Virus record (IMG/VR): IMGVR_UViG_3300025379_000052
Location: 1 to 29,030 of that record
DNA: 29,030 bases
Direction: 5' to 3' (one strand)
DNA from: a virus
The position numbers and the translations under genes are program-made. Position 1 is the first letter of the stretch, and every line of letters starts with the position of its first letter. The notes under the pieces are model-generated. The model did not search any database. It was given only the letters and a program-made list of their open reading frames with translations, and was not told where the DNA came from. This document shows, piece after piece, positions 1 through 21,104 of the stretch.

Positions 1-111
1 GACCCTGGCCAAACCGGTCGCAACTACAGTCTTCGACTTACTGATCTAGGCCAAGTAGCTTTGCGTACCTTGAATAATGGCGAAGGTATTGATATTACTG
101 GAAAATATTAA
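1..111 (+). CDS. 3' end of an unidentified gene
   Basis: Frame 1 is open from the first base to a TAA at 109-111 and encodes 36 residues ending in ITGKY. The composition (Leu, Gly, Asn, Thr, charged residues) looks like real protein. The start is outside the window, so the family cannot be assigned. It converges on the minus-strand gene that follows, with 17 bases between them and no obvious terminator hairpin. Confidence 0.55.
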   Translation, partial: DPGQTGRNYSLRLTDLGQVALRTLNNGEGIDITGKY

Positions 112-128
112 CTTTATAGTATTCTAGA

Positions 129-570
129 TCAATCTTTGGCAACAGGCACTGCTGTCTTGGCCCGATCCAAGCCAAGATCGATTTTCAGTTCCGGTGTGGG
201 CAAGACAGCTGGGCTGGCAGCGCCCAAGTCCTGCTGTATGATGGTGTCGACATCTCCAAGCTTGATGTTTTTCAGCATATCCAGTGTGTCTTTGTCAATG
301 ACCTTGAGGGATCTAAAGGCATTCAGTATGGTCATGGCAGCCCGCAAGAGTGATGTGATAGGTTGATGTTTACCACTGCTGATGTCAACTGGAAAAGGCA
401 TTGGAGATCGCCAAATCCAGCTGCTCAGCCGTGATCTCAACAGCATGGTCAGCCATTAGGCTGCGGATGTCTCGCACACGCATAGCAGGCTGGCCAGTTC
501 CGGCACCAACTGATCGCGAGTCCTGATGTCAAAAAAACAAGTCAAACACAAAAGGAAGATTTTGTTCCAT
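129..570 (-). pseudogene. Frame-disrupted gene of unknown function
   Basis: A good promoter (-35 at 620-625, -10 at 598-603, 16-bp spacer) and AAGGAG site lead to an ATG at 570, but the frame closes after 13 codons at a T7 run (531-537 on the plus strand). Protein-like sequence continues in other frames: DIRTRDQLVPELASLL, then VRDIRSLMADHAVEITAEQ, then PVDISSGKHQPITSLLRAAM to a stop at 129. Three small indels, at T7, a GTGTG repeat and T4, would restore one protein of about 145 residues. It is either a decaying gene, programmed slippage, or assembly error; the lesions sit in slippage-prone repeats. No function recognised. Confidence 0.6.
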
Positions 571-641
571 GTCGCTTGCTCCTTGCTTGCAGAGCCAATA
601 TAACAGTCTGGGCCTGTGGTGTCAACCAATGTTTTGCGGAT

Positions 642-872
642 TCAGTTGTTTTTTAGATACTCCGCTTCTGTCCAAAACCATTCTGGATCAAACTCCTCCA
701 GCTTGCATACCAATCCCAGCTCGGTCAGCTCATGATGCACGCGATCCCTGTCTTCCTGGTTGGCAAAACGATACAGGTATGTATCATAGTCATAGAACCA
801 TTTGGTGCTGTCAAGCCTGGCTGGCAGCTGATCATGGCAGGCCCGCCAGCGTACCACGTCATTGTGAGCCAT
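642..872 (-). CDS. Unknown protein, 76 aa
   Basis: The ATG at 872 has a GGAG nine bases upstream. The protein is rich in Trp, Tyr, Asp and Glu (WFYDYDTYLYRF, EEFDPEWFWTEAEYL), typical of small acidic phage proteins. It has no promoter of its own and lies 39 bases downstream of the TAG that ends the preceding gene, in the same frame. Either it is the second gene of a pair or the C-terminal half of a protein interrupted by TAG at 912-914; the separate ribosome site favours a separate gene. Confidence 0.65.
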   Translation of the reverse strand: MAHNDVVRWRACHDQLPARLDSTKWFYDYDTYLYRFANQEDRDRVHHELTELGLVCKLEEFDPEWFWTEAEYLKNN

Positions 873-911
873 GTGATCAATCTCCAGGATCCAAGGATGT
901 GCTGAATAACG

Positions 912-1157
912 CTAGAAGAAATATTCAAAATGCTGTTGGTCAAAAACTCCGCTGACCCGGCGGAGGCTTTTGCAGTGGTCGCCCCAGACCATGACAAACA
1001 GTACCTCATCCTTGATGTAACGAAACCCCATCATGGTATTATATTCGCCGTTGGTACGCCAGGTTTCGCTTGTCCACCTGTGATCTTGTTGGCCTATATT
1101 TTCCAGCAGCCACTGATGCATTTTCCAATGCCAGCGGACCAAAAGGTCATGCTGCAT
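912..1157 (-). CDS. Unknown protein, 81 aa
   Basis: Starts at an ATG at 1157 preceded by GAGGGGGG, a plausible ribosome site, and ends with FEYFF and TAG. Trp-rich (RWHWKMHQWLLEN, MVWGDH). A strong promoter (-35 at 1301-1306, -10 near 1278-1283) serves instead a short ORF from ATG 1251. Removing one G from the G6 run (1166-1171) joins that short ORF's frame to this one, except for a TAG at 1198-1200. The gene may therefore be an internal re-start of a longer, mutated protein. Function unknown. Confidence 0.6.
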   Translation of the reverse strand: MQHDLLVRWHWKMHQWLLENIGQQDHRWTSETWRTNGEYNTMMGFRYIKDEVLFVMVWGDHCKSLRRVSGVFDQQHFEYFF

Positions 1158-1197
1158 GGGAATTTCCCCCCTCGAGCTCCACGGATAGATATCGACC

Positions 1198-1251
1198 CTA
1201 GACCCGCATCTGCGGCCACTTGGGAAGGCTGACATTGTCGATGTCAAACAT
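1198..1251 (-). CDS. 17-codon leader ORF or broken 5' end
   Basis: The ATG at 1251 has an AAGGA site and sits directly behind a complete promoter. It encodes MFDIDNVSLPKWPQMRV and then TAG. After the TAG the same frame continues with GRYLSVELEG before meeting the next gene's frame across a G6 run. It could be a regulatory leader peptide or the original N-terminus of the following protein, cut by an amber mutation plus a one-base insertion. Confidence 0.4.
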   Translation of the reverse strand: MFDIDNVSLPKWPQMRV

Positions 1252-1302
1252 GTTTTGGTTCCTTGCGCTTGACCAACACATTAGCATGCCTGCTGGTGCA
1301 GG

Positions 1303-1590
1303 TCAATCGTTATAGATCCTCACCCGGGTTTTTTCTGCCCCGTCGACGCTGCCGGTCACCGGCAGCAGCTCCCAGCTCAGCACATCGCCCTCACAGTTCC
1401 TGATGGTGGTGGTGATGGCATAGCGCACCGTCTCACCTGTGCGGGCACTGACGATGTCAATGCAGTCAGCAGAATCTTTCCACGACCTGTGCCAGATCAT
1501 GCGCTGACCGCCCTGGCTGAGCTCGCTGATCTCCGCCGAAAACACACCGGTATGGCCGTCATAGGCAAAGTTGTTGCTGGAGAATTGCAT
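1303..1590 (-). CDS. Unknown protein, 95 aa
   Basis: Starts at ATG 1590 (MQFSSNNFAYDG) with a strong AAGGAG site; promoter -35 at 1640-1645 and -10 at 1618-1623, nearly the same sequence as the promoter of the broken gene at 129-570. The protein looks beta-rich, with alternating Thr, Val and Ile near its C-terminus. Its TGA stop lies inside the -35 box (1301-1306) of the next gene, a packing seen throughout the window. Probably a small cytosolic phage protein; function unknown. Confidence 0.75.
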   Translation of the reverse strand: MQFSSNNFAYDGHTGVFSAEISELSQGGQRMIWHRSWKDSADCIDIVSARTGETVRYAITTTIRNCEGDVLSWELLPVTGSVDGAEKTRVRIYND

Positions 1591-1652
1591 GTGATTGGCT
1601 CCTTGCTTGCAGAGTCAATATAACAGGCCGGACCTGTGGTGTCAACCACAGA

Positions 1653-2189
1653 TCAGTCTGCATGCTGCTGCTCGTGGAACCAGCGCAGCAGCGTGGCAGT
1701 GCTGGCAGCATCATCGGCCACTTCCTGCAGATGTTCTTCTTCAGCGTCGTATTCCTTGCCCAGCGCTCGTTCGTAGGCCGTTTCCCAACCAATGCGCCAG
1801 TGCTCGTGAGAGCACTCCTCGTCAACCTCGTCGTAGGGATTGTCAGTGATCCGCAGCCCGTCGTCGTAGGCATTGTATCCGGCCTTCTCACAAAGGGCCA
1901 GATCAATCTCGTCCTGGTCCGAAAACTCAAAACGACGGGCCCACAGCCGGGCCGCCTCGGCTTCCGAAACCTCAAACAGCTGGTAGTCAGGTTCGTCGTC
2001 CTCAAACTCCATGTTGCCGTGCCATGCCTCTTGGATGCTTTCGTAATCCATGTCAACGATCAGCACGTTGGAAATCACCATCACCTCACAGTCAAGCAAC
2101 AGTGACATGTTTTCGGTGCTGTTTCCGGTGCGAGAGCAGGGCTTGCCTGTGCTGAGACCAACGAGGTAAACGGTGTTGGGATCGCGCAT
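1653..2189 (-). CDS. Unknown acidic protein, 178 aa
   Basis: Starts at ATG 2189 (MRDPNTVYLVGLSTG) after an AAGGA site; in-frame codons upstream run through the promoter and are not used. The promoter has -10 TATTAT (2223-2228, minus) with a palindromic TTTATGC/GCATAAA flank. The C-terminal two thirds is highly acidic (EFEDDEPDYQLFEV, DAEEEHLQEVADDAA) with Trp-containing helices. Acidic phage proteins of this kind can mimic DNA, but nothing here proves that. No family recognised. Confidence 0.75.
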   Translation of the reverse strand: MRDPNTVYLVGLSTGKPCSRTGNSTENMSLLLDCEVMVISNVLIVDMDYESIQEAWHGNMEFEDDEPDYQLFEVSEAEAARLWARRFEFSDQDEIDLALCEKAGYNAYDDGLRITDNPYDEVDEECSHEHWRIGWETAYERALGKEYDAEEEHLQEVADDAASTATLLRWFHEQQHAD

Positions 2190-2211
2190 GGTGTTGTTCC
2201 TTGTGGCGTTG

Positions 2212-2260
2212 TTTATGCCGTGATAATAGCATAAATCGCTGAAAAAACAAGCGAAAACCG
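2212..2260 (-). promoter_or_regulatory. Promoter of the 178-aa gene, with palindrome
   Basis: Reading minus: -35-like TTGTTT, 16 bases, -10 TATTAT (2223-2228). The arms TTTATGC (2212-2218) and GCATAAA (2229-2235) are perfectly complementary and flank the -10 box. Confidence 0.55.
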
Positions 2261-2368
2261 AGTTTTTAGGCGGTTTTTTGGGGGTTTTTGGCGGTTGACA
2301 TTTCAGCAGCGTGCCCGGCGGCAACTATGGCAACAGCGCAAGCATTGCTGCTTGCGCTGTCGTCGGTG

Positions 2369-2650
2369 TTACTCGTAGTAGCCGACAAAACGCTCGTAGT
2401 CAAAAAACCCGCAAATCTTGCCGTTGCGATAGTAAAGCATGACAGCTCCCACATCGCGGCTTGTGTCGTAGTTGCACAAGCTTTCAAAGCGATCGTGCAG
2501 TATCTCTTGCTTGTTTTCGTAGTCTTCGCGAGTTTTCACTTCATCGCTGTAGTCGACATTGTATTCATGGGTGTTGACGAAGTAGTCTTCCTCATCAGCC
2601 CACACGTTGCCGTGCTTGTCGACGATCCCGTCTTTGGTGACAACTTGCAT
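2369..2650 (-). CDS. Unknown acidic protein, 93 aa
   Basis: Starts at ATG 2650 (MQVVTKDGIVDKHGNVW) with an AGGGG ribosome site. Asp, Glu and Tyr rich (DEEDYFVNTHEYNVDYSDE), ending FDYERFVGYYE. The promoter is not clear; the upstream bases become part of the TGC-rich low-complexity zone. No family recognised; the intact frame and ribosome site support a real gene. Confidence 0.7.
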   Translation of the reverse strand: MQVVTKDGIVDKHGNVWADEEDYFVNTHEYNVDYSDEVKTREDYENKQEILHDRFESLCNYDTSRDVGAVMLYYRNGKICGFFDYERFVGYYE

Positions 2651-2834
2651 TGTTGCATACCCCTATTCGCTTGTAAAAGAGCAGTAGCGTTACAGCGTTA
2701 GCGTGCTGTTGTTATGCACTAGCAGCGCGTTGTGTGTTGCGTTGTGCATGTGCTGCTTTTAGCTGTTTGCCATGTGCAATGCAAGCGAAAAATATGCTAG
2801 CTAGCAAAAAAACTGCACATGCACGCTAGCAGTG

Positions 2835-2918
2835 TTTTAAGCTTGCTACAGCATGCTGCAACGATAACAGCTAGTGCAGCACACACAGCACATACAACGC
2901 GCTGTAGCGTGCTTAAAA
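2835..2918 (+). ncRNA. Long-stem RNA element, copy 1
   Basis: TTTTAAGC-tt-GCTACAGC (2835-2852) pairs with GCTGTAGC-gt-GCTTAAAA (2901-2918): 16 Watson-Crick pairs, one U.G pair and one U-U mismatch if transcribed on the plus strand. The loop contains a smaller CTGCA/TGCAG hairpin. A second copy is at 5758-5840. It lies about 130 bases upstream of a small-RNA promoter. No promoter of its own was identified; role unknown. Confidence 0.5.
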
Positions 2919-3046
2919 TAGCTTGTAGCAGCATGCACACGCACATGCACATTCACGCGCAAAACACATGCAAGCATGCGTGGTCTAGCAATATTTTTGC
3001 ATGTCAGCTATGTGCAGATTTTGCTTGCATTGTGCAGTGGGTGTGC

Positions 3047-3166
3047 TATTATACGGACATAAAGCAGCAACCAACAGTGCGCAGATGCCGAAATCTGAGC
3101 CCAACGTTGCAGCAACAAAACAAAAATCAGCACACAAAAAAAGCGCACCGTCAAGTGCGCTTTTAG
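3047..3166 (+). ncRNA. Small RNA of the GCCGAAATCTGA family, copy 1
   Basis: Extended -10 TGCTATTAT (hexamer 3047-3052) with a -35-like TTGCAT, predicted start near 3059. Contains GCCGAAATCTGAGCC (3087-3101) then CAACGTTGCA, and ends at a perfect terminator (3139-3164). About 105 nt, no credible reading frame. CAGAT and ATCTG (3082-3086, 3093-3097) can form a hairpin presenting GCCGAA. The start of the transcript (ACGGACATA) matches the leaders of the minus genes at 3714 and 4100. Function unknown. Confidence 0.65.
3139..3164 (+). terminator. Intrinsic terminator of small RNA 1
   Basis: AAAAGCGCAC, loop CGTCAA, GTGCGCTTTT: ten perfect pairs followed by the T run. It can work in both directions, so it may also end the minus-strand gene at 3199-3714. 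Confidence 0.8.
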
Positions 3167-3198
3167 TGCGGCAGCCCTGCGTTTTTAACGCAGGCTTT

Positions 3199-3714
3199 TC
3201 ACTTCCATTCCTGTCCGTTGGCACGCAAGGCAACAATGCTGTCCAGCGCAAAGGTGCGAATCTGCACACGATTTTCTTCGCTGAGCCCGCCTTGAGCTTG
3301 TGGATTGACAGTGGGCTCGTCAAGCCCTTCAATGTCGTGCTTGCTGATTTCCACACCGTCGAGGAAATAGGTTGACTTGCCGGCACGCATCATGATCACT
3401 TCCAGATACTGCTTGCCACAGTGTTCCACAAAGCAAGTGCCTGGAATGCGCTCACCCCAGGCACGCGGACCCAAAACAAAGTCTTTGGCTGCCTTGCCCT
3501 CAGCTGCCAAGCGACGCCGCACCATGTTCTCGTAGGCGTTGCTATTGCTGTTGGAAAAGCACATCACCTGTGCGTCTGTGATCAGCTTGGTAACACGTGC
3601 CTGCATGGGATTCTTCTTGCCGCCCTTGAGCTTGACCTGCGTCAGCGAGTCCAGCCCAACGAAGGTGCCGCCTGCCAAACCAGCCAAAGCGTTGTTTGCA
3701 GTAGCTTTGTCCAT
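3199..3714 (-). CDS. Unknown protein, 171 aa, paralogue of 6072-6683
   Basis: Starts at ATG 3714 (MDKATANNALAGLAGG) with AAGGA upstream. Its middle section aligns end to end with the protein at 6072-6683: VTKLITDAQVMCFSN against VKVTVANVQLFNN, KQYLEVIMMRAGKSTYFLDG against TQYLYCLLNNNNAKSAYYIDG. Gly- and Lys-rich near residue 30 (KLKGGKKNP). Promoter on the minus strand: -35 TAGACA, -10 TATTAT (3749-3754) with a nine-base perfect palindrome. Composition is normal, unlike its paralogue. Function unknown. Confidence 0.8.
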   Translation of the reverse strand: MDKATANNALAGLAGGTFVGLDSLTQVKLKGGKKNPMQARVTKLITDAQVMCFSNSNSNAYENMVRRRLAAEGKAAKDFVLGPRAWGERIPGTCFVEHCGKQYLEVIMMRAGKSTYFLDGVEISKHDIEGLDEPTVNPQAQGGLSEENRVQIRTFALDSIVALRANGQEWK

Positions 3715-3739
3715 TTGCCTAAGTCCTTGTGTTTGTGTC

Positions 3740-3780
3740 TATGTCCGTATAATACACACGGACATAAACACTGTCTACCA
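3740..3780 (-). promoter_or_regulatory. Palindromic promoter of the 171-aa gene
   Basis: TATGTCCGT (3740-3748) and ACGGACATA (3758-3766) are perfect complements around the -10 TATTAT (3749-3754, minus). The -35 is TAGACA at about 3771-3776. Confidence 0.75.
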
Positions 3781-3803
3781 CTTTCTTACCGTTGACCAAA
3801 GAT

Positions 3804-4100
3804 TTATTTGGCCGCCGCAGCCACCGCCGCAGCTCGTTTGGCAGCACGTGCCGCTGCCATGCGTGCAACAAAATCTGCCTTCTTTGCAGCAACAGGATCA
3901 ACTTGTGCTGCTTGCTGAGCTTGCAGCCAAGCAATGGCTTGCACACGTGTCATTGGCTCGGGCAGTGTTTGCAAATGCACTTGCTCAGCCCCGTGATAGC
4001 GTAGCTTGTATGTGCGTCGGGCCACAGTGCCTGTGGCAACACGGAAGGATTCTACACCATCAAACACGGCAGTACCAGCAACAGTAAACAGCTTTTCCAT
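3804..4100 (-). CDS. Small TVAGT-family protein, 98 aa
   Basis: Starts at ATG 4100 (MEKLFTVAGTAVFDG) after an AGGAG site. First member of a three-gene family here (also 14913-15392 and 21382-21882), sharing an opening FT-[VI]-AGT-[AS]-V, a G-x-ATG-type strand and a L-x-x-LP-x-PM motif near residue 50. The C-terminus is an Ala/Lys/Arg-rich helix (RMAAARAAKRAAAVAAAAK) that could bind nucleic acid; this is inference. Promoter -10 TATTAT near 4134-4139. Function unknown. Confidence 0.8.
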   Translation of the reverse strand: MEKLFTVAGTAVFDGVESFRVATGTVARRTYKLRYHGAEQVHLQTLPEPMTRVQAIAWLQAQQAAQVDPVAAKKADFVARMAAARAAKRAAAVAAAAK

Positions 4101-4174
4101 GGTCAGCTCCTGTGTTGTGTTTTCCTATGTCCGTATAATAACACATCTACATGCTGCGTCTACCAGCAATATTG

Positions 4175-4215
4175 CAGGGCAGCAGTGCGTTTTTTGCACT
4201 TGCACTGCTGCCCTG
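4175..4215 (-). terminator. Hairpin at the end of the 85-aa gene
   Basis: CAGGGCAGCAGTGC (4175-4188) and GCACTGCTGCCCTG (4202-4215) are perfect 14-base complements just past the stop codon at 4222. No long T run follows on the minus strand, so it may stabilise the 3' end rather than terminate alone. Confidence 0.65.
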
Positions 4216-4221
4216 GCAGTG

Positions 4222-4479
4222 CTAACTGCCGTTGCGTTCCAACAAACCTGCTACATCTTTTTTAATGTCCAGCTCCACATCACTGCACTTGTATTGCATT
4301 TGCAAGTTGGCCAGCACTGTGTTAATGTCCTGCTGTGTTGCGTAGTCACTGACGTCCAGCTCTTCCAGCGCATACTTGTGCACAGGCAGTGCATAGCTGA
4401 CACGCAATTTAAGGCATATCACAGCGTTGCTGATGGGGCGACGCTTGTAACGAAGTGTGGCAAACAGCGTGTTGTGCAT
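4222..4479 (-). CDS. Unknown protein, 85 aa
   Basis: Starts at ATG 4479 (MHNTLFATLRYKRRP) with a GGAG site. The first half is basic (LRYKRRP) and the second acidic (ALEELDVSDYATQQD, DVELDIKKDV). The promoter on the minus strand has -35 TAGACA and -10 TAATAT. It ends at a perfect 14-bp hairpin. No family recognised. Confidence 0.7.
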   Translation of the reverse strand: MHNTLFATLRYKRRPISNAVICLKLRVSYALPVHKYALEELDVSDYATQQDINTVLANLQMQYKCSDVELDIKKDVAGLLERNGS

Positions 4480-4554
4480 TGTAGCGACTCCGTTGTGTTG
4501 TTAACCAGTGCATATTAGCACAAAACACAGTGATGTCTATTGCGTTTTGTGCAT

Positions 4555-4589
4555 GACAGCTGTGCAAACTTGTTGCTTGCACAGCTGTC
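4555..4589 (-). terminator. Hairpin at the end of the 64-aa gene
   Basis: GACAGCTGTGCA (4555-4566) and TGCACAGCTGTC (4578-4589) are perfect 12-base complements ten bases past the stop at 4599. Confidence 0.6.
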
Positions 4590-4598
4590 TGTGATCAA

Positions 4599-4793
4599 CT
4601 ATGCTGCCGCAGCTGCACGTTCAAACACTGCAATAATGCGCCGATCCGCTGCTGTAATTTGTGTGTAGCGTGTTTCAAACTGTTTGCCTGCGTTGTGCAG
4701 TTTCTGCACAATGCGTGACACTCGCACGCTCAACACATCGTTGTTTGTCGTCGCAGCAAACTCGCCCATGCGCTCAATAATGCTTGCGTTCAT
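4599..4793 (-). CDS. Unknown small protein, 64 aa
   Basis: Starts at ATG 4793 (MNASIIERMGEFAATT) after AGGAG; longer in-frame starts run through the promoter and have no ribosome site. Predicted mostly helical (NDVLSVRVSRIVQKLHNAG, DRRIIAVFERAAAAA). The promoter has -35 TAGACA and -10 TAATAT on the minus strand. No family recognised. Confidence 0.7.
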   Translation of the reverse strand: MNASIIERMGEFAATTNNDVLSVRVSRIVQKLHNAGKQFETRYTQITAADRRIIAVFERAAAAA

Positions 4794-4917
4794 TGTGTGT
4801 CTCCTGTGTGTGTGTTGCGTTAACCAGTGCATATTAGCATGTTTTGCTGTGTTGTCTATTGTGTTTTGTGCATGGCAGCTATGCAAAATTGTTGCTTGCA
4901 GTGCTTGCTGCTTGTGC

Positions 4918-5036
4918 TATTATGTGCTTGTTAAACAGTAACAAGCAGTGCGTAGCAGCCGAAATCTAACTTGTTTGTTGCACTTGTGTAATAAAAAAAC
5001 ACACACAAAAAACGCGCTATTGCTAGCGCGTTTTGT
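4918..5036 (+). ncRNA. Small RNA of the GCCGAAATCTGA family, copy 2
   Basis: -35-like TTGCAG, 16 bases, extended -10 TATTAT (4918-4923). Predicted start near 4930. Contains GCCGAAATCTAAC and ends at the perfect terminator 5009-5034. The sequence is nearly identical to copy 3 just downstream, so it is probably a recent tandem duplication of about 170 bases. No reading frame of note. Confidence 0.7.
5009..5034 (+). terminator. Intrinsic terminator of small RNA 2
   Basis: AAAACGCGCTA, loop TTGC, TAGCGCGTTTT: eleven perfect pairs with T run. Identical hairpins end copies 3 and 5. Confidence 0.85.
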
Positions 5037-5084
5037 GCATAGCAGCTATGCAAAATTGTTGCTTGCAGTGCCTGCTGCTTGTGC

Positions 5085-5202
5085 TATTATACGCACATAA
5101 ACAGCAACAAGCAGTGCGTAACAGCCGAAATCTAACTTGTTTGTTGCACTTGTGTAATAAAAAAACACACACAAAAAACGCGCTATTGCTAGCGCGTTTT
5201 GT
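5085..5202 (+). ncRNA. Small RNA of the GCCGAAATCTGA family, copy 3
   Basis: -10 TATTAT at 5085-5090, start near 5097, terminator at 5175-5200. The 5' part can fold as ACGCAC with GTGCGT, and AGTGC-gt-AACAG can pair with TTGTT-GCACT around a loop beginning CCGAAATCT; the two foldings compete for GTGC. It converges on the minus gene at 5235-5531. Confidence 0.7.
5175..5200 (+). terminator. Intrinsic terminator of small RNA 3
   Basis: Same 11-bp hairpin with TTGC loop and T4 run as at 5009. It is palindromic and can also stop the minus-strand gene at 5235. Confidence 0.85.
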
Positions 5203-5234
5203 GCATAGCAGCTATGCTAGCTTTGCACTTGCGT

Positions 5235-5531
5235 TTACTCCCACTCGCCCATGTAATAGTCAGTTTGCAAGTTATTAACAACGTAAGCATAATACTCTCG
5301 CACGTAAGAATCTTGCTGTGCAATGCTGTTAACAAGCTCGTCTACGTCGCGCGTTTTAGCAAACTGTTTTAAGCAGCGTTTTGCATATGCAGTGTCTGCA
5401 CGTTTCTCGCGCACAGTGCTTGCGCTGTTGTTTGTATAGTCTTGTATGCATTCTTGCACAATGTCAACAATAGCTGCATAAGCAGCGTTGTTTGCAATGT
5501 TGCAAACTTTTGTATACTCGTTAACATACAT
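5235..5531 (-). CDS. Unknown protein, 98 aa
   Basis: Starts at ATG 5531 (MYVNEYTKVCNIANN) with a GGAG nine bases upstream; the longer in-frame start at 5579 would use the transcript leader and is rejected. Rich in Tyr, Ala, Asn and Val, C-terminus NNLQTDYYMGEWE. The minus-strand promoter (-35 TTTACA, -10 TATTAT) gives a leader starting GCACTTGTTAAACAGCAACA, the same 20 bases that begin small RNA copies 4 and 6. No family recognised. Confidence 0.7.
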   Translation of the reverse strand: MYVNEYTKVCNIANNAAYAAIVDIVQECIQDYTNNSASTVREKRADTAYAKRCLKQFAKTRDVDELVNSIAQQDSYVREYYAYVVNNLQTDYYMGEWE

Positions 5532-5757
5532 AGCAGTAAGCTCCGTGTGTTGCTGTTTAACAAGTGCATAATAGCACAAAACGCACTGCTGTAAATTGCG
5601 TTTTGTGCATGGCTGCTATGTGTATTTGCTGCTTGCACTGCACGCTGCTTGTGCTATTATGCACTTGTTAAACAGCAACAAGCAGTGCGTAACAGCCGAA
5701 ATCTATGCCCGCTGTTGCACTTGTGTAATAAAAAACAGCACATGCACGCTAGCAGCG

Positions 5758-5840
5758 TTTTAAGCGTGCTACAGCGTGCTAAGTAGCAAGCAGCTAGTGC
5801 AGCGCAACAACACATACAACACGCTGTAGCGTGCTTAAAA
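5758..5840 (+). ncRNA. Long-stem RNA element, copy 2
   Basis: TTTTAAGC-gt-GCTACAGC (5758-5775) pairs with GCTGTAGC-gt-GCTTAAAA (5823-5840). The central gt/gt pairs as two G.U wobbles in plus-strand RNA, giving an unbroken 18-bp stem; the complementary strand would have two A-C mismatches. That asymmetry points to a plus-strand RNA. Confidence 0.6.
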
Positions 5841-5878
5841 CGTGCTTAGCGTGCTTGCAGTATGTTTAGCGTGCTTGC

Positions 5879-5912
5879 AGCAAAAAAACTTGCTGTAGCG
5901 TGTTTTTTTGCT
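5879..5912 (+). terminator. Terminator-like hairpin with T7
   Basis: AGCAAAAAAAC (5879-5889) and GTTTTTTTGCT (5902-5912) are perfect 11-base complements around a 12-base loop, with the T run inside the descending arm. Confidence 0.55.
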
Positions 5913-5933
5913 TTACATATGCGCTGCTTGTGT

Positions 5934-6051
5934 TATTATACGCACATAAACAGCAACAAGCAGTGCGTAAAGGCCGAAATCTATGCCCGCTGTTGCACTA
6001 ACAAAACAAAAAAACACACACAAAAAACGCGCTATTGCTAGCGCGTTTTGT
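5934..6051 (+). ncRNA. Small RNA of the GCCGAAATCTGA family, copy 5
   Basis: -10 TATTAT at 5934-5939 with a -35-like TTTACA, start near 5946. Contains GGCCGAAATCTATGCCCG and ends at the perfect terminator 6024-6049. The outer AGTGC/GCACT pairing is kept, the inner AACAG is changed to AAAGG and no longer pairs. It converges on the minus gene at 6072. Confidence 0.65.
6024..6049 (+). terminator. Intrinsic terminator of small RNA 5
   Basis: Third copy of the AAAACGCGCTA-TTGC-TAGCGCGTTTT hairpin, placed between converging transcripts. Confidence 0.85.
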
Positions 6052-6071
6052 GCATAGCAGCTATGCAGTTT

Positions 6072-6683
6072 TTACACTTGCACAGTTTGCTTTTGTGCAA
6101 CAATGCTTACAATATTTTGCAATTTGGGCGTAAACACTTTTACAGTGTGCTCTATGTTATTTGTAATATTGTGTATTGTGTTTGTTGCGTTAAGCAAGTT
6201 TTTTGCTGCACTTGCAGACAAGTATTGTGCAACTTGCTCTTTTGTAACGCATTGTCCATCAATGTAATATGCACTTTTAGCATTGTTATTGTTTAGCAAA
6301 CAATACAAGTATTGTGTGCCGTTTGTTTTGTGCTGCACAACGCTAAAGCACGCAGTGTGCATGTAATATGTTTCTTTTGTAACAAACTGTTGCACATTTT
6401 GTGTGTCGTTTGTTACAATTTGTGCTGCGCTACGTTTAACAGCAGCAGCATACACATTGTTAAATTGTTTAACATTGTTAAACAGTTGCACATTTGCAAC
6501 TGTTACTTTAACAATGTTTACATTTTTATACTTTGCAGCAGTAGCAACAGGCGTTACTTGCGTTACTGTAGCAAATGTAACGCCGTGCACGTTTTGTAAC
6601 AGTGCAGTAACTTGTTGCGCTGTTATTAAATTATTGTTAGCATGTGCAGCAATAGCAGCTTGTGCAATAGTAGCGTTTAGCAT
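6072..6683 (-). CDS. Asn/Ala/Val-rich paralogue of 3199-3714, 203 aa
   Basis: Starts at ATG 6683 (MLNATIAQAAIAAHANNN) after CGGAG. Only about 11 of 203 residues are D, E, G, P, R or W, while Asn is near 26; this follows from the near-absence of GA, GG, CC and TC in the DNA. Despite that, residues 45-155 align with the normally composed protein at 3199-3714, with no stop codons, so it is a maintained gene evolving under a severe sequence constraint. The promoter and leader match those of the gene at 5531. Function unknown. Confidence 0.75.
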   Translation of the reverse strand: MLNATIAQAAIAAHANNNLITAQQVTALLQNVHGVTFATVTQVTPVATAAKYKNVNIVKVTVANVQLFNNVKQFNNVYAAAVKRSAAQIVTNDTQNVQQFVTKETYYMHTACFSVVQHKTNGTQYLYCLLNNNNAKSAYYIDGQCVTKEQVAQYLSASAAKNLLNATNTIHNITNNIEHTVKVFTPKLQNIVSIVAQKQTVQV

Positions 6684-6803
6684 GTGCGTTGCTCCGTGTT
6701 GCTGTTTAACAAGTGCATAATAGCACAAAACGCACTGCTGTAAATTGCGTTTTGTGCATGGCTGCTATGTGTATTTGCTGCTTGCACTACACGCTGCTTG
6801 TGC

Positions 6804-6890
6804 TATTATGCACTTGTTAAACAGCAACAAGCAGTGCGTAACAGCCGAAATCTGAGCCTGTTGTTGCGTTTGTGTAATTAAAAATGCTAG
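6804..6890 (+). ncRNA. Small RNA of the GCCGAAATCTGA family, copy 6
   Basis: -10 TATTAT at 6804-6809, start near 6816, leader identical to copy 4. AACAG pairs with CTGTT, and AGTGC can pair with GCGTT using two G.U wobbles, which conserves the copy 4 fold with changed bases. No clear terminator; the 3' end is a guess. Confidence 0.5.
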
Positions 6891-7021
6891 CACAAATAAA
6901 CACGCATGTCAACCAGTAAATTTGCTGTTTAGCTATGCTGTTTTTGCATTTGCATTTTACAAAATATAGGGCACTGTTGGGGCAAGTGAAAATGTTTGCA
7001 CAACAGCAACAATCACGTTTG

Positions 7022-7136
7022 TGCAACAGTTGCAGTTGTGCAACAGTTGCAGTTGCACAACAATTATGAGTGCGTAACTGTAGCAGTTGCGTAACTGTAG
7101 CAATTGCGTAACTGTTAGGCTGGTGCAACAGTTGCA
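7022..7136. repeat. Short tandem palindromic repeats
   Basis: TGCAACAGTTGCA, a perfect six-base palindrome around one A, occurs at 7022-7034, 7039-7051 and 7124-7136. Between them GCGTAACTGTAGCAGTT-type units repeat two to three times with a period of 17-18. The cluster lies just upstream of the promoter at 7155 and could be operators or replication iterons. No gene was found between 6890 and 7214. Confidence 0.6.
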
Positions 7137-7213
7137 GTTGCGTGCTAGAAAAACGGTTGACAACACAGTTGTTTGTGCTACAACAAACACGTGGTCAGCA
7201 AAGGGTCAATGAC

Positions 7214-7540
7214 ATGCAAGCTCAAGCAACCCGTCGACGTCGTCGTTCAGACACCAATCACATCATCTATTGCCTCACTGCTCCGGATGGGCAACAGTAT
7301 GTGGGGGTGACTGTCAAGGATCCCGGCCCTGTTAAGAAAAGTCTGCATCGTCGCTGGATGAAGCATGTCTATCGTGCTCGCAGCGAAAACAAAGCATGGA
7401 CACTGTATGAAGCCATGCGACTGCACGGTGCTGATGCGTTTCGTGTAGAAGCATTGGAAGTGGTGCGTGGCAAGGCTCCTGCACATGCACGTGAGCGTGT
7501 GCTTACACGTGAGCTTGGTGCAACACTCAACACTCACTGA
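7214..7540 (+). CDS. GIY-YIG nuclease, 108 aa
   Basis: The motifs are IIYC near residue 17 and YVG at 29-31, followed by an Arg-rich helix (SLHRRWMKH) holding the expected catalytic Arg and a Glu near residue 79 (FRVEALEVV). This is the compact GIY-YIG fold alone, the size of phage-encoded single-domain nucleases; it cuts DNA with a divalent metal. The N-terminus is a basic stretch (RRRRR). Start at ATG 7214 with AAAGGG eight bases upstream. Promoter TTGACA near 7155 with a GTTTGT/ACAAAC palindrome at the -10. It may be a homing or a repair/defence nuclease. Confidence 0.8.
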   Translation: MQAQATRRRRRSDTNHIIYCLTAPDGQQYVGVTVKDPGPVKKSLHRRWMKHVYRARSENKAWTLYEAMRLHGADAFRVEALEVVRGKAPAHARERVLTRELGATLNTH

Positions 7541-7848
7541 AACACAGTGTCAAACATGTTGACACTGTTGACAATGATGTTATCATGCAGGTGTTGCAGT
7601 GTTGTAGAGGTGTTGAACACGGTTGCCAACAGTGTTCAACAAGGTTGACAGCAGTGAGTTGGCTACACAGTCAAAGGTCAGCATCATTGATACGTCTGCA
7701 CACAGTGTCAATCTAGTTGACACGCACATCACAGCTGATACTTGACGCATGTCAGCTGAAAACTAGAGTAACTATCCAACTGGTCCCCGCAGCATCAACA
7801 CCTGGTCCCCGCAGCGGTTAGCAGTTGGTACTAACAAGGAGCTTGACA
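7541..7848. promoter_or_regulatory. Non-coding control region with paired palindromes
   Basis: About 300 bases without a gene. GTGTCAA-N5-TTGACAC occurs at 7547-7565 and again at 7705-7723 with different spacers, as expected for an operator bound by a dimer. GTTGAACAC (7612-7620) and GTGTTCAAC (7632-7640) form another perfect pair. Two GGTCCCCGC elements follow at 7782 and 7804. It could be a switch region, an origin, or both. Confidence 0.6.
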
Positions 7849-8079
7849 ATGTATTACATTCTCATCAACGACGAAGAAAATTGTGCAATGACCTTTGATT
7901 CGTTTTCCCGAGCACAATCTGCCTACTATCACCAATGGCGAAACAATGATGGTTCCATTCCTTGGAAGATACTGCAGGCTGATTATGAGATCAATGCTGC
8001 TGATGGCAACATCATGCACAGCTCTTGAGCAACACCTCAGCAACATTGCTGTAAACAAAACTAGGTCCCCGCAGCGGTT
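7782..8079 (+). repeat. GGTCCCCGCAGCGGTT elements, cluster 1
   Basis: Copies at 7782 (partial), 7804-7819 and 8064-8079, all on the plus strand and all in gene-free sequence upstream of small genes. The element contains CCGC-A-GCGG. A second cluster is at 27251-28047. Confidence 0.8.
7849..8028 (+). CDS. Unknown protein, 59 aa
   Basis: Starts at ATG 7849 (MYYILINDEENCAMTF) with AAGGAG. No TTGACA is seen; TACTAA at about 7829 with the GGTCCCCGCAGCGGTT element nine bases upstream may be its promoter, which would make it the one gene whose control depends on that element. Aromatic-rich single small domain (FDSFSRAQSAYYHQW). No family recognised. Confidence 0.7.
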   Translation: MYYILINDEENCAMTFDSFSRAQSAYYHQWRNNDGSIPWKILQADYEINAADGNIMHSS

Positions 8080-8138
8080 TGCCATTGACATATAACAAGG
8101 CTGTGCTATTATACACAAACACACAAAGGAACAGCAAC

Positions 8139-8594
8139 ATGGGCACACGTAGCCGTATTGGCATCCGCAATGCTGATGACACTGTGGATTCGATCTACTG
8201 TCACTGGGATGGCTATCCCGAACACAATGGCCGGCTGCTGGTCGAACACTACACAGACCAAGCTAAGGTGCGTGAGCTGATCGCGCTGGGCGATCTCAGC
8301 AGCCTGGGCGAGGAGATCGGCGTCAAGCATCCGTTTGACACGCACGACTTTCCGGGCGGCTACGACAAGTATAACCAGCTCTACGGCAAGATGTGCACGG
8401 CCTATGGCCGGGACCGCGGTGAAACTGCGGTCGATGCCGAGCACAGCCACAGCGTTGATGCGTTCCTCCGCATTGACTGTGGTGCCGAATACTACTACAT
8501 CTTCCACTATGGTCGCTGGATGGTACGCAGCGGCAGCAACTGGGTGCTGGTGGAAGATGTGTTGCAGGCCAAAGCTGAGGACCAAGAAGCCTAA
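8139..8594 (+). CDS. MGTRSRIG-family phage protein, 151 aa
   Basis: Opens MGTRSRIGIRNADDTVDSIYCHWDGYP, a sequence I recognise as a widespread conserved phage protein of unknown function; the HWDGYP and LIALGDLSSLG motifs are kept. The length is in the usual range. Promoter TTGACA, 16 bases, TATTAT immediately downstream of a GGTCCCCGCAGCGGTT element; start with AAGGA upstream. GC content is higher than its neighbours. Confidence 0.85.
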   Translation: MGTRSRIGIRNADDTVDSIYCHWDGYPEHNGRLLVEHYTDQAKVRELIALGDLSSLGEEIGVKHPFDTHDFPGGYDKYNQLYGKMCTAYGRDRGETAVDAEHSHSVDAFLRIDCGAEYYYIFHYGRWMVRSGSNWVLVEDVLQAKAEDQEA

Positions 8595-8684
8595 CAAAAA
8601 TCTGTCTCTGCATCAGTTTGTCATTGACAGCTGGTACAAACAGTGTTATGCTAGAACACATCAAACACAACAGGAAACACCATC

Positions 8685-8984
8685 ATGCGTAACTCAATTG
8701 TTGCAGATTCAAATCGGGTAAGTGAAGAAGTTCGTCGAGCACACAGCCGGGCTATTCGTGCTCGAGAACAGTGGCGTCGTCGTTATGCAGTGCTCACCAG
8801 CAGCATACGCAATACCAAACGTGCCATAGCTGATGCACATCGCAACAATACAGTGAATTGTGCCGGCGAGATTGAACTGCGAGCTCTGCGGCACTATGCC
8901 AATCTCATGATGATGAGGCGTGATTTCATCACGGATGATCTACGTGCCACTGCTTATGAATATGTAGACATCATTGCTGTTTAA
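8685..8984 (+). CDS. Unknown basic helical protein, 99 aa
   Basis: Starts at ATG 8685 (MRNSIVADSNRVSEE) with AGGA. The sequence from residue 15 on is Arg-rich and likely helical or coiled (AHSRAIRAREQWRRRYAVL, RDFITDDLRATAYEYV). Promoter TTGACA near 8627 with -10 TTATGC. Nucleic-acid binding is possible from charge alone. No family recognised. Confidence 0.75.
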   Translation: MRNSIVADSNRVSEEVRRAHSRAIRAREQWRRRYAVLTSSIRNTKRAIADAHRNNTVNCAGEIELRALRHYANLMMMRRDFITDDLRATAYEYVDIIAV

Positions 8985-8990
8985 TATCGG

Positions 8991-9030
8991 TTGACAACGC
9001 CAGCACACCTGCTATTGTGTGCTGGCAACA
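8991..9030 (+). promoter_or_regulatory. Palindromic promoter of the MGLDMYL gene
   Basis: -35 TTGACA 8991-8996, -10 TATTGT 9013-9018. GCCAGCACAC (8999-9008) and GTGTGCTGGC (9017-9026) are perfect ten-base complements centred at the 5' edge of the -10. Confidence 0.85.
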
Positions 9031-9041
9031 AGGAGGCCATC

Positions 9042-9287
9042 ATGGGTTTGGATATGTATCTCAATGCTCGCCGCTTTCTTTGGACCAGCTGGGGTCCTCA
9101 GCACCGTGGCAAGGACGATGATGTTGCCGATGCCATCCAGGCCGCCCTGCCTGAGATGGGCAGCATGCGGCCCAAGTATGTGGAATACTACCACGAGCAG
9201 ACCGCCTACACGCGGGATCGCATCCGCGAGCTGCTCGGAAACGAGGATCTTGCCAGCTGGGATTTCCAGTACCATTCCAGCTGGTGA
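9042..9287 (+). CDS. MGLDMYL-family phage protein, short form, 81 aa
   Basis: Opens MGLDMYLNARRFLW, a start I recognise from a common phage family of unknown function; related proteins are usually longer, so this is a shortened version lacking the C-terminal part. It has the acidic stretch (GKDDDVADAIQAALPEM) that typically follows. The ribosome site AGGAGG is strong. Its promoter carries a ten-base palindrome. Confidence 0.8.
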   Translation: MGLDMYLNARRFLWTSWGPQHRGKDDDVADAIQAALPEMGSMRPKYVEYYHEQTAYTRDRIRELLGNEDLASWDFQYHSSW

Positions 9288-9367
9288 TGGGCAGCAACTG
9301 TGAATCAATATGGTTGACATCATCATTGCAGGTGCTATAATGCATGGACAAGCAAGGAGCAGCCAAC

Positions 9368-9553
9368 ATGACCTATCGTGAGTTAATGGAATACTTGTCG
9401 GGGCTCGACAGCAGCCAGCTTGACTGCGATGTGACTGTGTATCTCACTGAGACAGAAGAATACTTTTCTTTAGCGAATGATTACCCTGTGGCAGAAACAA
9501 ATACAGATGTTTCGGATGTGCTTGATCCAAATCATCCGTATCTACGGATATAA
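9368..9553 (+). CDS. Small MTYRELMEYL-type phage protein, 61 aa
   Basis: Starts at ATG 9368 with AAGGAG; promoter TTGACA 9314-9319 and TATAAT 9336-9341. Opens MTYRELMEYLSGLDSSQLDCDVTVYL, resembling a common small phage and prophage family in which a helix is followed by a beta strand with a V-T-V-Y motif. Acidic. Function unknown. Confidence 0.75.
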   Translation: MTYRELMEYLSGLDSSQLDCDVTVYLTETEEYFSLANDYPVAETNTDVSDVLDPNHPYLRI

Positions 9554-9611
9554 ATTAGTTGACAACACCCATGCTGGTGCTATAATACCCACACAGAACA
9601 AGGAGGCTGGG

Positions 9612-9896
9612 ATGCCGCGCAAGACGTTCAATATCGACGATTTCCGCCATCGTGCCAACGAAACACTTGCCAGCAGCACTGGCAGTGCTGATCAGCGTCA
9701 AGGCATCATGTGGGCCATTGAGCATGTGCTGTTGGACACAGGAAACTATCGCGGGTTTCGCTATCTCACTGCCAATGAAGTGCCTGCAGGACATGTTCCT
9801 GGCATCAACATCAGCCCCATCGACGGGCAGCACATGGAAGACCATGAGGCTCGCTTTACCAACACAGATCGCACCCGCGTCAGCTATTTCAGTTGA
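9612..9896 (+). CDS. Unknown protein, 94 aa
   Basis: Starts at ATG 9612 (MPRKTFNIDDFRHRANE) with AGGAGG; promoter TTGACA 9559-9564 and TATAAT 9581-9586. A basic N-terminus precedes a helical section (RQGIMWAIEHVLLDTG) and a flexible tail. The TGA stop is inside the TTGACC -35 box of the next gene. No family recognised. Confidence 0.75.
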   Translation: MPRKTFNIDDFRHRANETLASSTGSADQRQGIMWAIEHVLLDTGNYRGFRYLTANEVPAGHVPGINISPIDGQHMEDHEARFTNTDRTRVSYFS

Positions 9897-9946
9897 CCAT
9901 GCCCAGGTATGTGCTATAATGCATGGGCAAGCAAGGAGTTAGACAC

Positions 9947-10519
9947 ATGGAACTGAACCGTTTTGAAGCCATTCGCAACAAAACCGCTGAGGTGCTGGAC
10001 AAGGCCCGGCTGCTTTACGGTGTTGATCTCAAGCCTGTGGTCAGCTTTAATCTACGCGGTCGTGTTGCAGGTTGGGCCAGCTGCCGGCATTGTGCAGGAC
10101 AGCGTGTATACACTTTGCGTTTCAATCGCGAGCTGATTGCCAGCGACCACTTCGAGGACATTCGCGACAACACAGTTGCTCATGAAATTGGGCATCTCGT
10201 CTGCTATGCTCGCCCAGAATTGGGCAAGAATCATGATGCTGGCTGGCGTCGCGTGTGTCTTGCTCTGGGTGGCAACGGCAATGCCCGACATGACTATGCT
10301 GTCACTTATGCCAACGGCAGCTGGGATTACATCAGCACCGGCGGGCACAAGGTCACCGTCAGCAACATACGCCACAAGAAGGTGCAGCAGGGCACTGTCT
10401 ACACACTTAAAAACGGTCTAGGACGCATTGATCGTTCTTGCCGCTTTGCAGCCCATGGACGCCCCATGCCGGAAAATTCGCCCACAGTGTTGCCAAACCA
10501 GCATACACGAGCTGCATAA
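9947..10519 (+). CDS. SprT-like zinc metalloprotease, 190 aa
   Basis: HEIGH at residues 79-83 supplies two zinc ligands and the catalytic Glu; NHDAGW (His 96) matches the third-ligand position of the SprT-like family. A SCRHC sequence near residues 45-49 may add a metal site. SprT-like and Spartan proteins cut DNA-bound proteins in cellular organisms; the phage versions are uncharacterised. The C-terminal 50 residues are basic and may bind DNA. Start at ATG 9947 with AAGGAG; promoter -35 9893-9898, -10 TATAAT 9915-9920, flanked by TGCCCA/TGGGCA. Confidence 0.85.
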   Translation: MELNRFEAIRNKTAEVLDKARLLYGVDLKPVVSFNLRGRVAGWASCRHCAGQRVYTLRFNRELIASDHFEDIRDNTVAHEIGHLVCYARPELGKNHDAGWRRVCLALGGNGNARHDYAVTYANGSWDYISTGGHKVTVSNIRHKKVQQGTVYTLKNGLGRIDRSCRFAAHGRPMPENSPTVLPNQHTRAA

Positions 10520-11723: not shown

Positions 11724-12311
11724 ATGAACACATTTGACTTTGAAGATGGCAATGGACCTGTTGCTGCTCATCAGCACTCCAAGGGTGGCGGCTGGGTGGC
11801 TGATACCGCCCATGTCGCAGATACAGCCTATGTGGGTGTAAATGCACGGGTCTTTGGCACTACCGATGTCTCCGACAATGCTCGCATCACTGGCAAGGCT
11901 CAAATCGATGACGATGCTCGGGTCTGCGACGATGCTGTGGTCAGTGGCAATGCTCGGGTCACTGACAGTGCTGTGGTCAGTGGCAGTGCTGTGGTCAGTG
12001 GCAGTGCTGTGGTCAAATACCTGGCTTGGGTCACTGACAGTGCTGTGGTCACTGACAGTGCTGTGGTCAGTGGCAGTGCTGTGGTCAAAGACCGGGCTTG
12101 GGTCACTGACAATGCTGTGGTCAAAGACCGGGCTTGGGTCTGTGGCACGGCTGTGGTCAGTGGCAGTGATGTGATCAGTGGCAGTGATGTGATCAAAGAC
12201 AATGCTCCGTCCCCAGGCACCACCTCCTTGAGTCTGGATGATATGATAACAGCGGCCAAATGCCTGTCAGAAAATGATCGAAAGGCATTGGTGCTGTCAT
12301 TGACCTCTTGA
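11724..12311 (+). CDS. Hexapeptide-repeat beta-helix protein, 195 aa, expanded copy
   Basis: After MNTFDFEDGNGPVAAHQH the protein reads GGGWVADTAHVADTAYVG and then about 19 six-residue repeats of the type [S/D]-[G/S/D]-[S/N/R]-A-[V/W]-V, the left-handed parallel beta-helix signature. A capped C-terminal helix (DDMITAAKCLSENDRKAL) follows. It resembles bacterial YdcK-like and phage beta-helix proteins of unknown role. The near-identical shorter paralogue at 24017 differs in repeat number. The -35 is a weak TTGCAT; the stop lies in the next -35 box. Confidence 0.85.
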   Translation: MNTFDFEDGNGPVAAHQHSKGGGWVADTAHVADTAYVGVNARVFGTTDVSDNARITGKAQIDDDARVCDDAVVSGNARVTDSAVVSGSAVVSGSAVVKYLAWVTDSAVVTDSAVVSGSAVVKDRAWVTDNAVVKDRAWVCGTAVVSGSDVISGSDVIKDNAPSPGTTSLSLDDMITAAKCLSENDRKALVLSLTS

Positions 12312-14912: not shown

Positions 14913-15392
14913 ATGACCAACTCTAAAATGTTTACCATTGCTGGTACCTCCGTGCTCAACGGGCAGCTGACCTATCGCTTTGCCACAGGCAATGTCAAAG
15001 TGCGTGTCAACAAACTGATCAAGACTGGGCACAGTGACATCAATTTGCAGACATTGCCTGCTCCAATGACCAAAAGCGACGCTGTGTCGTTTTTGCAAAG
15101 CCAGGGCATTGATGCAGTGTTGCCCAGCGGTGGCAAACACAAGGCCGTGCCGCCCACTGCTGAACAATCTGCTGCGGCGGAAAAGGCTGCCAAGGCCGCT
15201 GCGTTTACCCAGCGCATGGCTGCGGCACGAGCTGCCAAGGCCGCTGCCAAACAGGCAGCTGAGGATGCAGCGTTCTTTGCTGCCCAGTCTGGTGATACAG
15301 CGGGTGCTGCGGCACTGCTGGCAGCTGCCGAAGAGCACGGTGTGGAAATTGAACGTGAAATGGCCATTGCTGAAGGCACTGTAGAAGGCTAA
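14913..15392 (+). CDS. TIAGT-family protein with long Ala/Lys helix, 159 aa
   Basis: The N-terminal 60 residues (MFTIAGTSVLNGQLTYRFATG, LQTLPAPM) match the 98-aa protein at 3804 and the 166-aa protein at 21382. From residue 80 there is a long charged Ala-rich helix (RMAAARAAKAAAKQAAEDAA) extended relative to the 3804 protein. Promoter TTGACT near 14843, TAAAAT 14865-14870; AAGGAG before ATG. A nucleic-acid role is inference from the helix only. Confidence 0.8.
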   Translation: MTNSKMFTIAGTSVLNGQLTYRFATGNVKVRVNKLIKTGHSDINLQTLPAPMTKSDAVSFLQSQGIDAVLPSGGKHKAVPPTAEQSAAAEKAAKAAAFTQRMAAARAAKAAAKQAAEDAAFFAAQSGDTAGAAALLAAAEEHGVEIEREMAIAEGTVEG

Positions 15393-17544: not shown

Positions 17545-17767
17545 GTGCTGTTGCCCTCCTTTGGCAATAGGGTGGTTGGGGATTGCAGTCCCGTGAGCCA
17601 CACCTATTTATGCCAACGGCTTAAAATACGCGCCTACAACGCCGCTACAGCGGGGTCTAGCAACAGGGTCGCTACTAGGGTAGCGGGCAGGTGATCACCC
17701 GGCTGTAGCCGCTTAAAAAACCGGTATGGCGATTGACAGCAAAGGTTGACACGCTGCTGCGATGTGC
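17545..17767 (+). ncRNA. Long-stem RNA element, copy 3 (partial)
   Basis: GCTACAGC (17644-17651) pairs with GCTGTAGC (17702-17709), followed by C and GCTTAAAA as in copies 1 and 2, but the left TTTTAAGC arm is absent. Inside is a perfect CGCTAC-TAGG-GTAGCG hairpin (17670-17685). It again lies just upstream of a GCCGAAATCTGA small RNA. The rest of this gene-free stretch holds only the -35 of that RNA. Confidence 0.45.
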
Positions 17768-19939: not shown

Positions 19940-20101
19940 ATGAAAACCTATTTCTATCAGATTGAGTTTGTAGACGGCCGTGTGGTGCGTCGCGAAGGTG
20001 TTAGCCGGACCATGGCCCAAAGCGTGTATAACGCCTGTGAGTATGAAATGTTGCTGTTGAATGTCAGCAGCGTCAGCTGGGGTAAGATGGAAAAAGGTTG
20101 A
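19940..20101 (+). CDS. Unknown protein, 53 aa
   Basis: Starts at ATG 19940 (MKTYFYQIEFVDGRVVRRE) with CGGAG. Two beta strands and a helix (SRTMAQSVYNACEYEML). The stop TGA is inside the TTGACA of the next gene. No family recognised. Confidence 0.7.
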   Translation: MKTYFYQIEFVDGRVVRREGVSRTMAQSVYNACEYEMLLLNVSSVSWGKMEKG

Positions 20102-20151
20102 CACAAGCTGCAGCCGTGTTATAGTGCAGATGTTGAAACGGAGCAAGCAAC

Positions 20152-20397: not shown

Positions 20398-20455
20398 CTG
20401 GTTGACATCGAGCCAAGACCTGTTATTATGTGTCTGCAAGCAAGGAGCAAGCAAC

Positions 20456-20635: not shown

Positions 20636-20641
20636 TTTTCG

Positions 20642-20678
20642 GTTGACACTGCAGGTGCTGGTGCTATTATGCACCAGC
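20642..20678 (+). promoter_or_regulatory. Palindromic promoter of the 116-aa gene
   Basis: -35 TTGACA near 20643, -10 TATTAT 20665-20670. GCTGGTGC (20657-20664) and GCACCAGC (20671-20678) are perfect complements directly flanking the -10. Confidence 0.85.
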
Positions 20679-20695
20679 CAGCAAGGAGCAAGACA

Positions 20696-21046: not shown

Positions 21047-21104
21047 TTTTGGTTGACACTGCAGGTGTTGGTGCTATTATGCACTTGCAAACAAGGAGCA
21101 AAAC

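Follow-up and report, generated by a model that had tools for sequence, protein, structure and literature searches.

A 4.5-kb stretch of a lake-phage genome is almost without C after a pyrimidine and G before a purine, that is, without the dinucleotides TC, CC, GA and GG (5'-YC-3', or 5'-GR-3' on the opposite strand; Y, pyrimidine; R, purine). The genome is IMG/VR virus record IMGVR_UViG_3300025379_000052, and the window under analysis is this entire record of 29,030 bases, over which dinucleotide counts, observed over expected, were taken in sliding windows. Between 4501 and 7200 the YC/GR ratio falls as low as 0.08 per 500-bp window, against a mean of 1.01 (standard deviation (SD) 0.096, minimum 0.64) in 3,813 non-overlapping 500-bp control windows from all the other loci fetched (other phages, bacterial contigs, T5 and SPO1). 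It is ~0.95 in 1–2000 and 0.7–1.0 across most of 8000–29030, and the depletion is confined to the core and one outlying block. This bears out an earlier note, written from the letters of this DNA, which reported near-total loss of the four dinucleotides and called for such a genome-wide scan; its count of 13 instances in 6061–6660 is exact, and its expectation of roughly 150 is too high (~110 from local base composition, ~124 from the flank rate). The depletion is uneven, strong in 2651–3042 (0.15–0.18) and 4794–7213 and partial in 3199–4480, and the longest run free of YC/GR spans 262 bp (5710–5972). Over 5641–28413 a second contig, deposited separately (IMGVR_UViG_3300006115_000085), matches with 100% identity, so the core is no assembly accident and a chimera or artefact is ruled out; left of 5641 the record rests on one assembly, and both contigs may stem from the same lake population. 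The depletion is real, local and extreme.

The excluded motif has two letters, since trinucleotides containing YC/GR all fall to 0.03–0.37 of the flank rate whatever their third base. Longer candidates (YYC, or a trinucleotide protospacer-adjacent motif (PAM)) were rejected on these grounds; some residual trinucleotide structure exists, with ACC/GGT lowest, and no longer motif accounts for the loss. In 4901–6900, 98% of purine runs consist of As closed by at most one G and 94% of pyrimidine runs of at most one C followed by Ts (flank, 68% and 73%), so that the rule formulated in the earlier note, C not preceded by a pyrimidine, describes the sequence well. Both strands are hit, as that note had also claimed (4501–7200, plus-strand YC 0.28, plus-strand GR 0.12), and the plus-strand excess of YC largely represents Asp, Glu and Gly codons of leftward genes, Shine–Dalgarno sites and a conserved stretch of small RNA (sRNA)-like units. 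The 96 YC/GR sites left in 4501–6900 lie mostly in apparently constrained elements, namely CTCC (the Shine–Dalgarno sequence of leftward genes), GAN and GGN codons, and the AGCCGAAATCT that is invariant among the sRNA-like units, as they should if single sites carry a small cost and are lost wherever they can be.

The coding genes were measured against a synonymous floor, with the protein held fixed, codons drawn with flank usage and the minimum YC/GR count over all synonymous codings found by dynamic programming (Table 1; genes are named here by their first coordinate). Taken in gene order, the fraction of avoidable sites kept runs 0.83, 0.84, 0.61, 0.56, 0.37, 0.10 and 0.03, then 0.74 (gene 7214) and 1.19 (gene 7852) beyond 7.2 kb; 34 genes of the right flank average 0.92 (SD 0.22). 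Spacers follow the same course (0.80, 0.53, 0.39, 0.14, 0.12 and 0.26), with the exception of the block at 2651–3198 (0.25), which includes a diverged copy of 5730–6081. The two series therefore describe a gradient that rises rightward and ends abruptly at ~7.2 kb. They also uphold the earlier claims that genes and spacers are both affected (down to 0.03 and 0.12, respectively) and that the force is local, with near-ordinary flanks (0.84 for gene 3199, 0.74 for gene 7214).

Table 1. Features of the depleted region; site counts are YC/GR dinucleotides on the synonymous-floor test, and 'kept' is the fraction of avoidable sites retained.
Feature	Position	Strand	Remarks
Core of YC/GR exclusion	4501–7213		sharp right edge ~7.2 kb
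Outlying depleted spacer	2651–3198		2807–2918 and the sRNA unit are diverged copies of 5730–5840 and 5930–6081
sRNA-like unit 1	3043–3174	+	least depleted of the copies; promoter, GCCGAAATCT in the leader, hairpin of a terminator
Gene of a family present in other large phages	3199–3714	−	near-normal composition; kept 0.84
Small gene, partly adapted	3804–4100	−	kept 0.61; paralogues at 14913 and 21382
Small gene, partly adapted	4222–4479	−	kept 0.56
Small adapted gene	4599–4793	−	observed 20, expected 34, minimum 12; kept 0.37; coding-strand YC 0.12, GR 1.11
sRNA-like unit 2	4914–5032	+	intrinsic terminator
sRNA-like unit 3	5081–5200	+	intrinsic terminator
Small gene nearly at floor	5235–5531	−	observed 21, expected 47, minimum 18; kept 0.10
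sRNA-like unit 4	5651–5760	+	no canonical terminator directly after
sRNA-like unit 5	5930–6050	+	intrinsic terminator
203-residue gene at floor	6072–6683	−	observed 13, expected 86, minimum 11; z = −10.6; kept 0.03
sRNA-like unit 6	6800–6905	+	no canonical terminator
About eight 17-bp tandem repeats	7002–7158	+	right edge of core
GIY-YIG endonuclease-like gene	7214–7540	+	ordinary composition, just outside core; kept 0.74

Gene 6072 is the most telling case. Its coding strand is equally depleted of YC and GR (0.04 each), and its protein is almost without Asp, Glu, Gly, Pro, Arg and Trp, whereas its homologue nearby, gene 3199, is ordinary (BLASTP E 1e-6; profile comparison E 1.6e-5 over 161 columns). 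Members of the 3199 family in other large phages likewise have ordinary composition; the predicted structure for the family is a moderate model (predicted local distance difference test score, pLDDT, 75) whose fold matches are unnamed viral proteins, the fold search giving no solved homologue. A search for relatives of the most depleted genes found none beyond the same phage, and no close relative carrying the core in diverged form was found either. Gene 6072 gives a PADLOC match to HamC2 (DUF3223 domain, E 3.6e-7) that is absent for gene 3199 and may reflect its biased composition. Gene 3804 (−) and its paralogues at 14913–15392 (+) and 21382–21882 (+) share an N-terminal domain with differing tails and belong to no known family.

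Three simple causes can be set aside. The spacers do hold duplicated modules of 77–189 bp, but expansion of repeats is excluded as the sole cause by the non-repetitive gene 6072, with 13 sites against 86 expected at fixed protein (z = −10.6); the earlier note had already argued this from the coding gene, and the return to normal odds on masking of repeats that it named as a possible outcome was not seen in this unique sequence. Relaxed constraint is ruled out by the flank spacers, which are less depleted. TT is a main target of ultraviolet damage, and TT rises in the core, which rules out avoidance of such damage.

A broader form of the repeat idea supposes that a genome-wide dinucleotide preference (GC and CA/TG high, with a mild YC/GR deficit), together with duplication of modules poor in YC, was carried to an extreme by drift in a module that is young and under weak constraint. 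The flank is indeed mildly low (~0.85) with bias in the same direction (GC 1.32, CA 1.5), and the duplicated spacer modules fit. Gene 6072, at its floor, is no repeat, however; a stretch poor in open reading frames beyond 24.7 kb stands at 0.89 and other flank spacers mostly at 0.66–0.94, and drift offers no ready account of the sharp edge at 7.2 kb. We consider this explanation unlikely.

The directions of change help to tell scarring from avoidance. In genes 6072 and 5235 a purine precedes all 46 of the 46 C-initial codons, compared with 103 of 183 in four flank genes, and fourfold sites before a pyrimidine carry T, C, A and G at 9%, 0%, 36% and 55% (flank 22, 19, 22 and 37%). TTN codons are not raised in the core and Gln (CAR) codons are doubled; CT/AG shows no rise (0.93) while CC/GG falls to 0.15, and it is GC (1.45), TA (1.69) and AC (1.26) that increase. 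The usual promoter of this phage, TTGACA-16-TATNAT, appears in the core with a −35 element of TTGCA plus C, G or T, or of TTTACA, and never TTAACA, and CGGACA has become CGCACA. Between the sRNA-like units at 3043 and 4914, 11 of the 17 differences that change YC/GR are transversions; among recent module copies, 18 of 50 mismatches alter the YC/GR count (each judged in one background), compared with 23.7 expected (P 0.07), an uninformative difference.

These data bear on the mechanism that the earlier note placed first, long exposure to a cytosine deaminase preferring TC and CC, which would act on a region made single-stranded by transcription or at an origin and leave C-to-T scars on both strands. 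YC is the classic deaminase context, and the context depletion of deaminase-scarred DNA is present (YC/GR 0.08–0.4); GC content drops to 0.38–0.44, AA/TT rise 1.5-fold, core proteins lose His and gain Tyr, and depletion at the left edge is stronger on the sense strand than on the antisense (gene 4599, YC 0.12 versus GR 1.11), as transcription-coupled attack predicts. The rise in C>T/G>A products is absent, however. Either base of the dinucleotide has been changed, TTN is flat and Gln CAR doubled, and first-position C codons remain frequent, each behind a purine. Among the conserved Asp, Glu, Gly, Pro and Trp positions lost in gene 6072, 6 of 30 are reachable by C>T/G>A alone and none of the 8 lost Glu positions became Lys, a comparison that is supportive rather than conclusive because at ~27% identity to gene 3199 many positions are saturated. 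No deaminase gene was found among the window proteins scanned (29 kb of phage). Avoidance by any available change is probably the right description, being better supported than scarring, and of the two mechanisms in the earlier note the better fit is the second, in which the sequence evades a nuclease or a modification system of YC/GR context. We hold scarring to be not very likely, although a deaminase could itself be what is avoided, a strong one acting as selective agent via robustness.

The module in which the dinucleotide is avoided has a distinctive layout. Six rightward sRNA-like units, each with its own sigma-70-like promoter and a leader containing the invariant GCCGAAATCT, lie among leftward genes, and four of the six end in an intrinsic terminator. 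An Rfam search of the units returned sub-threshold matches only, and their pattern occurs in viral and bacterial collections at chance level and without a promoter. Genes run leftward to the left of 7.2 kb and rightward to the right of it; GC skew along the record only drifts and allows no clear origin call. The whole looks like a host-takeover module beside an origin or genome end.

This layout invites an explanation through transcription, in which early RNAs with little or no translation shed pyrimidine–C dimers and so evade termination by Rho; since the same DNA would be transcribed rightward from the sRNA units and leftward in the genes, both strands would be depleted. The primary sites of Rho bind 5'-YC dimers (PMC9160355), six rightward sRNA promoters stand among the leftward genes, and the RNA-sense strand is the more depleted at the edges (leftward sense in 3199–5234, rightward sense in 6801–7213). 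This modest excess of YC loss on the sense strand, seen also in gene 4599, hints that transcription matters and keeps Rho and transcription-coupled attack among the candidates. Evasion of Rho would nevertheless need only a thinning of YC-rich, G-poor stretches and not a two-strand synonymous floor in a translated gene; depletion is not confined to the transcribed strand, and the intrinsic terminators of the sRNA units mean that rightward RNA should rarely traverse gene 6072. With coding-strand YC and GR equally at the floor in that gene, the non-RNA strand being as clean as the RNA strand, pressures on single-stranded RNA (Rho, ribonucleases) are insufficient, and we regard Rho avoidance as decidedly unlikely.

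A modification of G in GR (or of C in YC) that must be absent from the module, for example of a short-context deazaguanine type, would explain the locality by leaving an early region free of modification. Phage DNA modifications with very short contexts exist. 7-Deazaguanine has been described in phage DNA (PMC6884629). No modification gene was seen in the 29 kb, however, the flank promoters contain GA within TTGACA and seem to serve well, and host RNA polymerase reads most modified phage DNAs, which counts against this reading; it is highly improbable.

The explanation we favour, tentatively and by analogy, is selection against YC/GR in early DNA that would be unprotected when it enters the cell, ahead of the rest. 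On this view the module, with its rightward sRNA-like units and small genes that mostly point left, would have been under long and effective purifying selection against the dinucleotide in double-stranded DNA, every avoidable instance being removed by any acceptable substitution and others kept only where ribosome binding, essential Asp, Glu or Gly codons, or the sRNA recognition stretch require them. We infer that the module would meet the cell first, like the first-step-transfer DNA of T5, at a stage when a DNA-targeting activity with a two-base requirement is present; DNA arriving later would escape, the activity having ended or been blocked in the meantime, and both the gradient and its single sharp edge would follow. 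Candidate agents are a system with a PAM-type requirement, comparable to the YC-like PAMs of some type I CRISPR (clustered regularly interspaced short palindromic repeats) systems, and a nuclease of very short specificity, either host-encoded or the phage's own host-DNA-degrading enzyme. Our best guess is a nuclease, dependent on a PAM or of short specificity, that would act on the DNA entering first. That an activity recognizing only 5'-YC/GR in a defined early window of infection drove the rewriting of the module, proteins included, is possible but somewhat doubtful. Within this account, what has been observed is the two-letter motif and how local its exclusion is, the synonymous floor, the directions of substitution, and a gradient with a sharp right edge.

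Several points weigh against it. Both contigs continue unbroken across 7.2 kb, the putative genome end. None of the window proteins scanned is a nuclease, CRISPR or anti-CRISPR protein that could be linked to the motif; the search for a deaminase or unusual nuclease gene that the earlier note suggested turned up homing-type GIY-YIG/NUMOD3 endonucleases only. The rest of the genome retains the motif, so whole-genome targeting must be explained away, and the sites left in the core mean that each must cost little. The first-step region of T5 is a dinucleotide outlier of a different pattern, and the terminal repeat of SPO1 is no outlier. The depleted block at 2651–3042 does not fit a simple gradient, except as a copy that has moved; its homology to 5730–6081 suggests such an origin.

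Whatever the agent, avoidance of sites by phages is usually a modest statistical lack of a 4–6-bp site; here selection, or a process mimicking it, reached the coding floor for a 2-bp motif and altered protein composition. The graded series of genes within 4 kb is a built-in natural experiment, and the locus is testable with a recoded phage or a reporter. Should a defence system or a phage nuclease that recognizes two bases prove responsible, its specificity would be unusually short; if the agent is a PAM requirement, the earliest-entering DNA would carry most of the selection.

Elsewhere in the record, GIY-YIG/NUMOD3 homing-endonuclease-like genes number three (7214–7540 (+), 16642–17601 (−) and 18616–19365 (−)). 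The 2.28 kb at 20046–22328 are 99.87% identical to two otherwise different phage contigs, 3300013094_000036 and 3300013093_004893 (7797–10079 in one), and the shared segment ends inside an ATPase gene, pointing to DNA exchanged recently or to a chimera in the assembly. Six copies of (T/A)GGTCCCCGCAGCGGTT lie at irregular spacing in spacers (7787–7824, 8047–8084 and 27257–27533). Related proteins with repeated VSGSAVV-like units are encoded at 11724–12311 and 24017–24406 (both +; alike over 270–300 nt), coding 69-bp tandem repeats (WYVNGQ.HRTDGPA units) fill 28106–29030 up to the record end, and the protein of 1653–2189 (−) matches ribosome modulation factor below threshold (Pfam RMF, E 0.0015).

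A limited literature search found no equivalent case, and the known systems that come closest each share part of the pattern. In human viruses, depletion of TC contexts has been described as a footprint left by, or selected against, APOBEC3 deaminases (PMC7449416); the phage core loses TC and CC equally, on both strands and in one segment, with losses not biased to C>T. The dinucleotide bound by Rho is the same, but Rho reads one RNA strand and the exclusion here affects both. Closer is the depletion of PAMs documented in phages of CRISPR-carrying hosts (Kupczok and Bollback 2014, PMC4246573), likewise a case of a very short motif removed by purifying selection, with codon usage as the yardstick; here too a motif, of two bases, is depleted on both strands beyond codon usage. 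There the effect spans whole genomes of phage groups, whereas here it is local, near absolute and without a linked CRISPR system or spacer. T5 DNA enters in two steps and is insensitive to restriction (PMC9345386), and T5-like phages have a pre-early region without EcoRI sites (PMC13250531); in T5 we find no EcoRI site in 1–30,000. Much as the early-gene-like segment of the lake phage lacks its motif, a small early segment of T5 is free of the sites of a nuclease, EcoRI, that the rest of the genome carries or tolerates, and the T5 pre-early region also holds small hypothetical genes on both strands with a homing endonuclease gene inside. T5 lacks a 6-bp site, whereas the lake phage excludes a motif of 2 bp, over kilobases and as far as its coding permits. 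The first-step-transfer repeat of T5 (1–10219) departs from the rest of T5 in its own way (GA 0.8, AG 0.8, GC 1.5, CG 1.3, CC ~1.0–1.2). The analogy is one of logic and not of sequence. The sharp edge at ~7.2 kb and the genes diverging from there are at most indirect signs that the segment would lie at a genome end and enter first; segment-specific absence of a motif is common to both phages.

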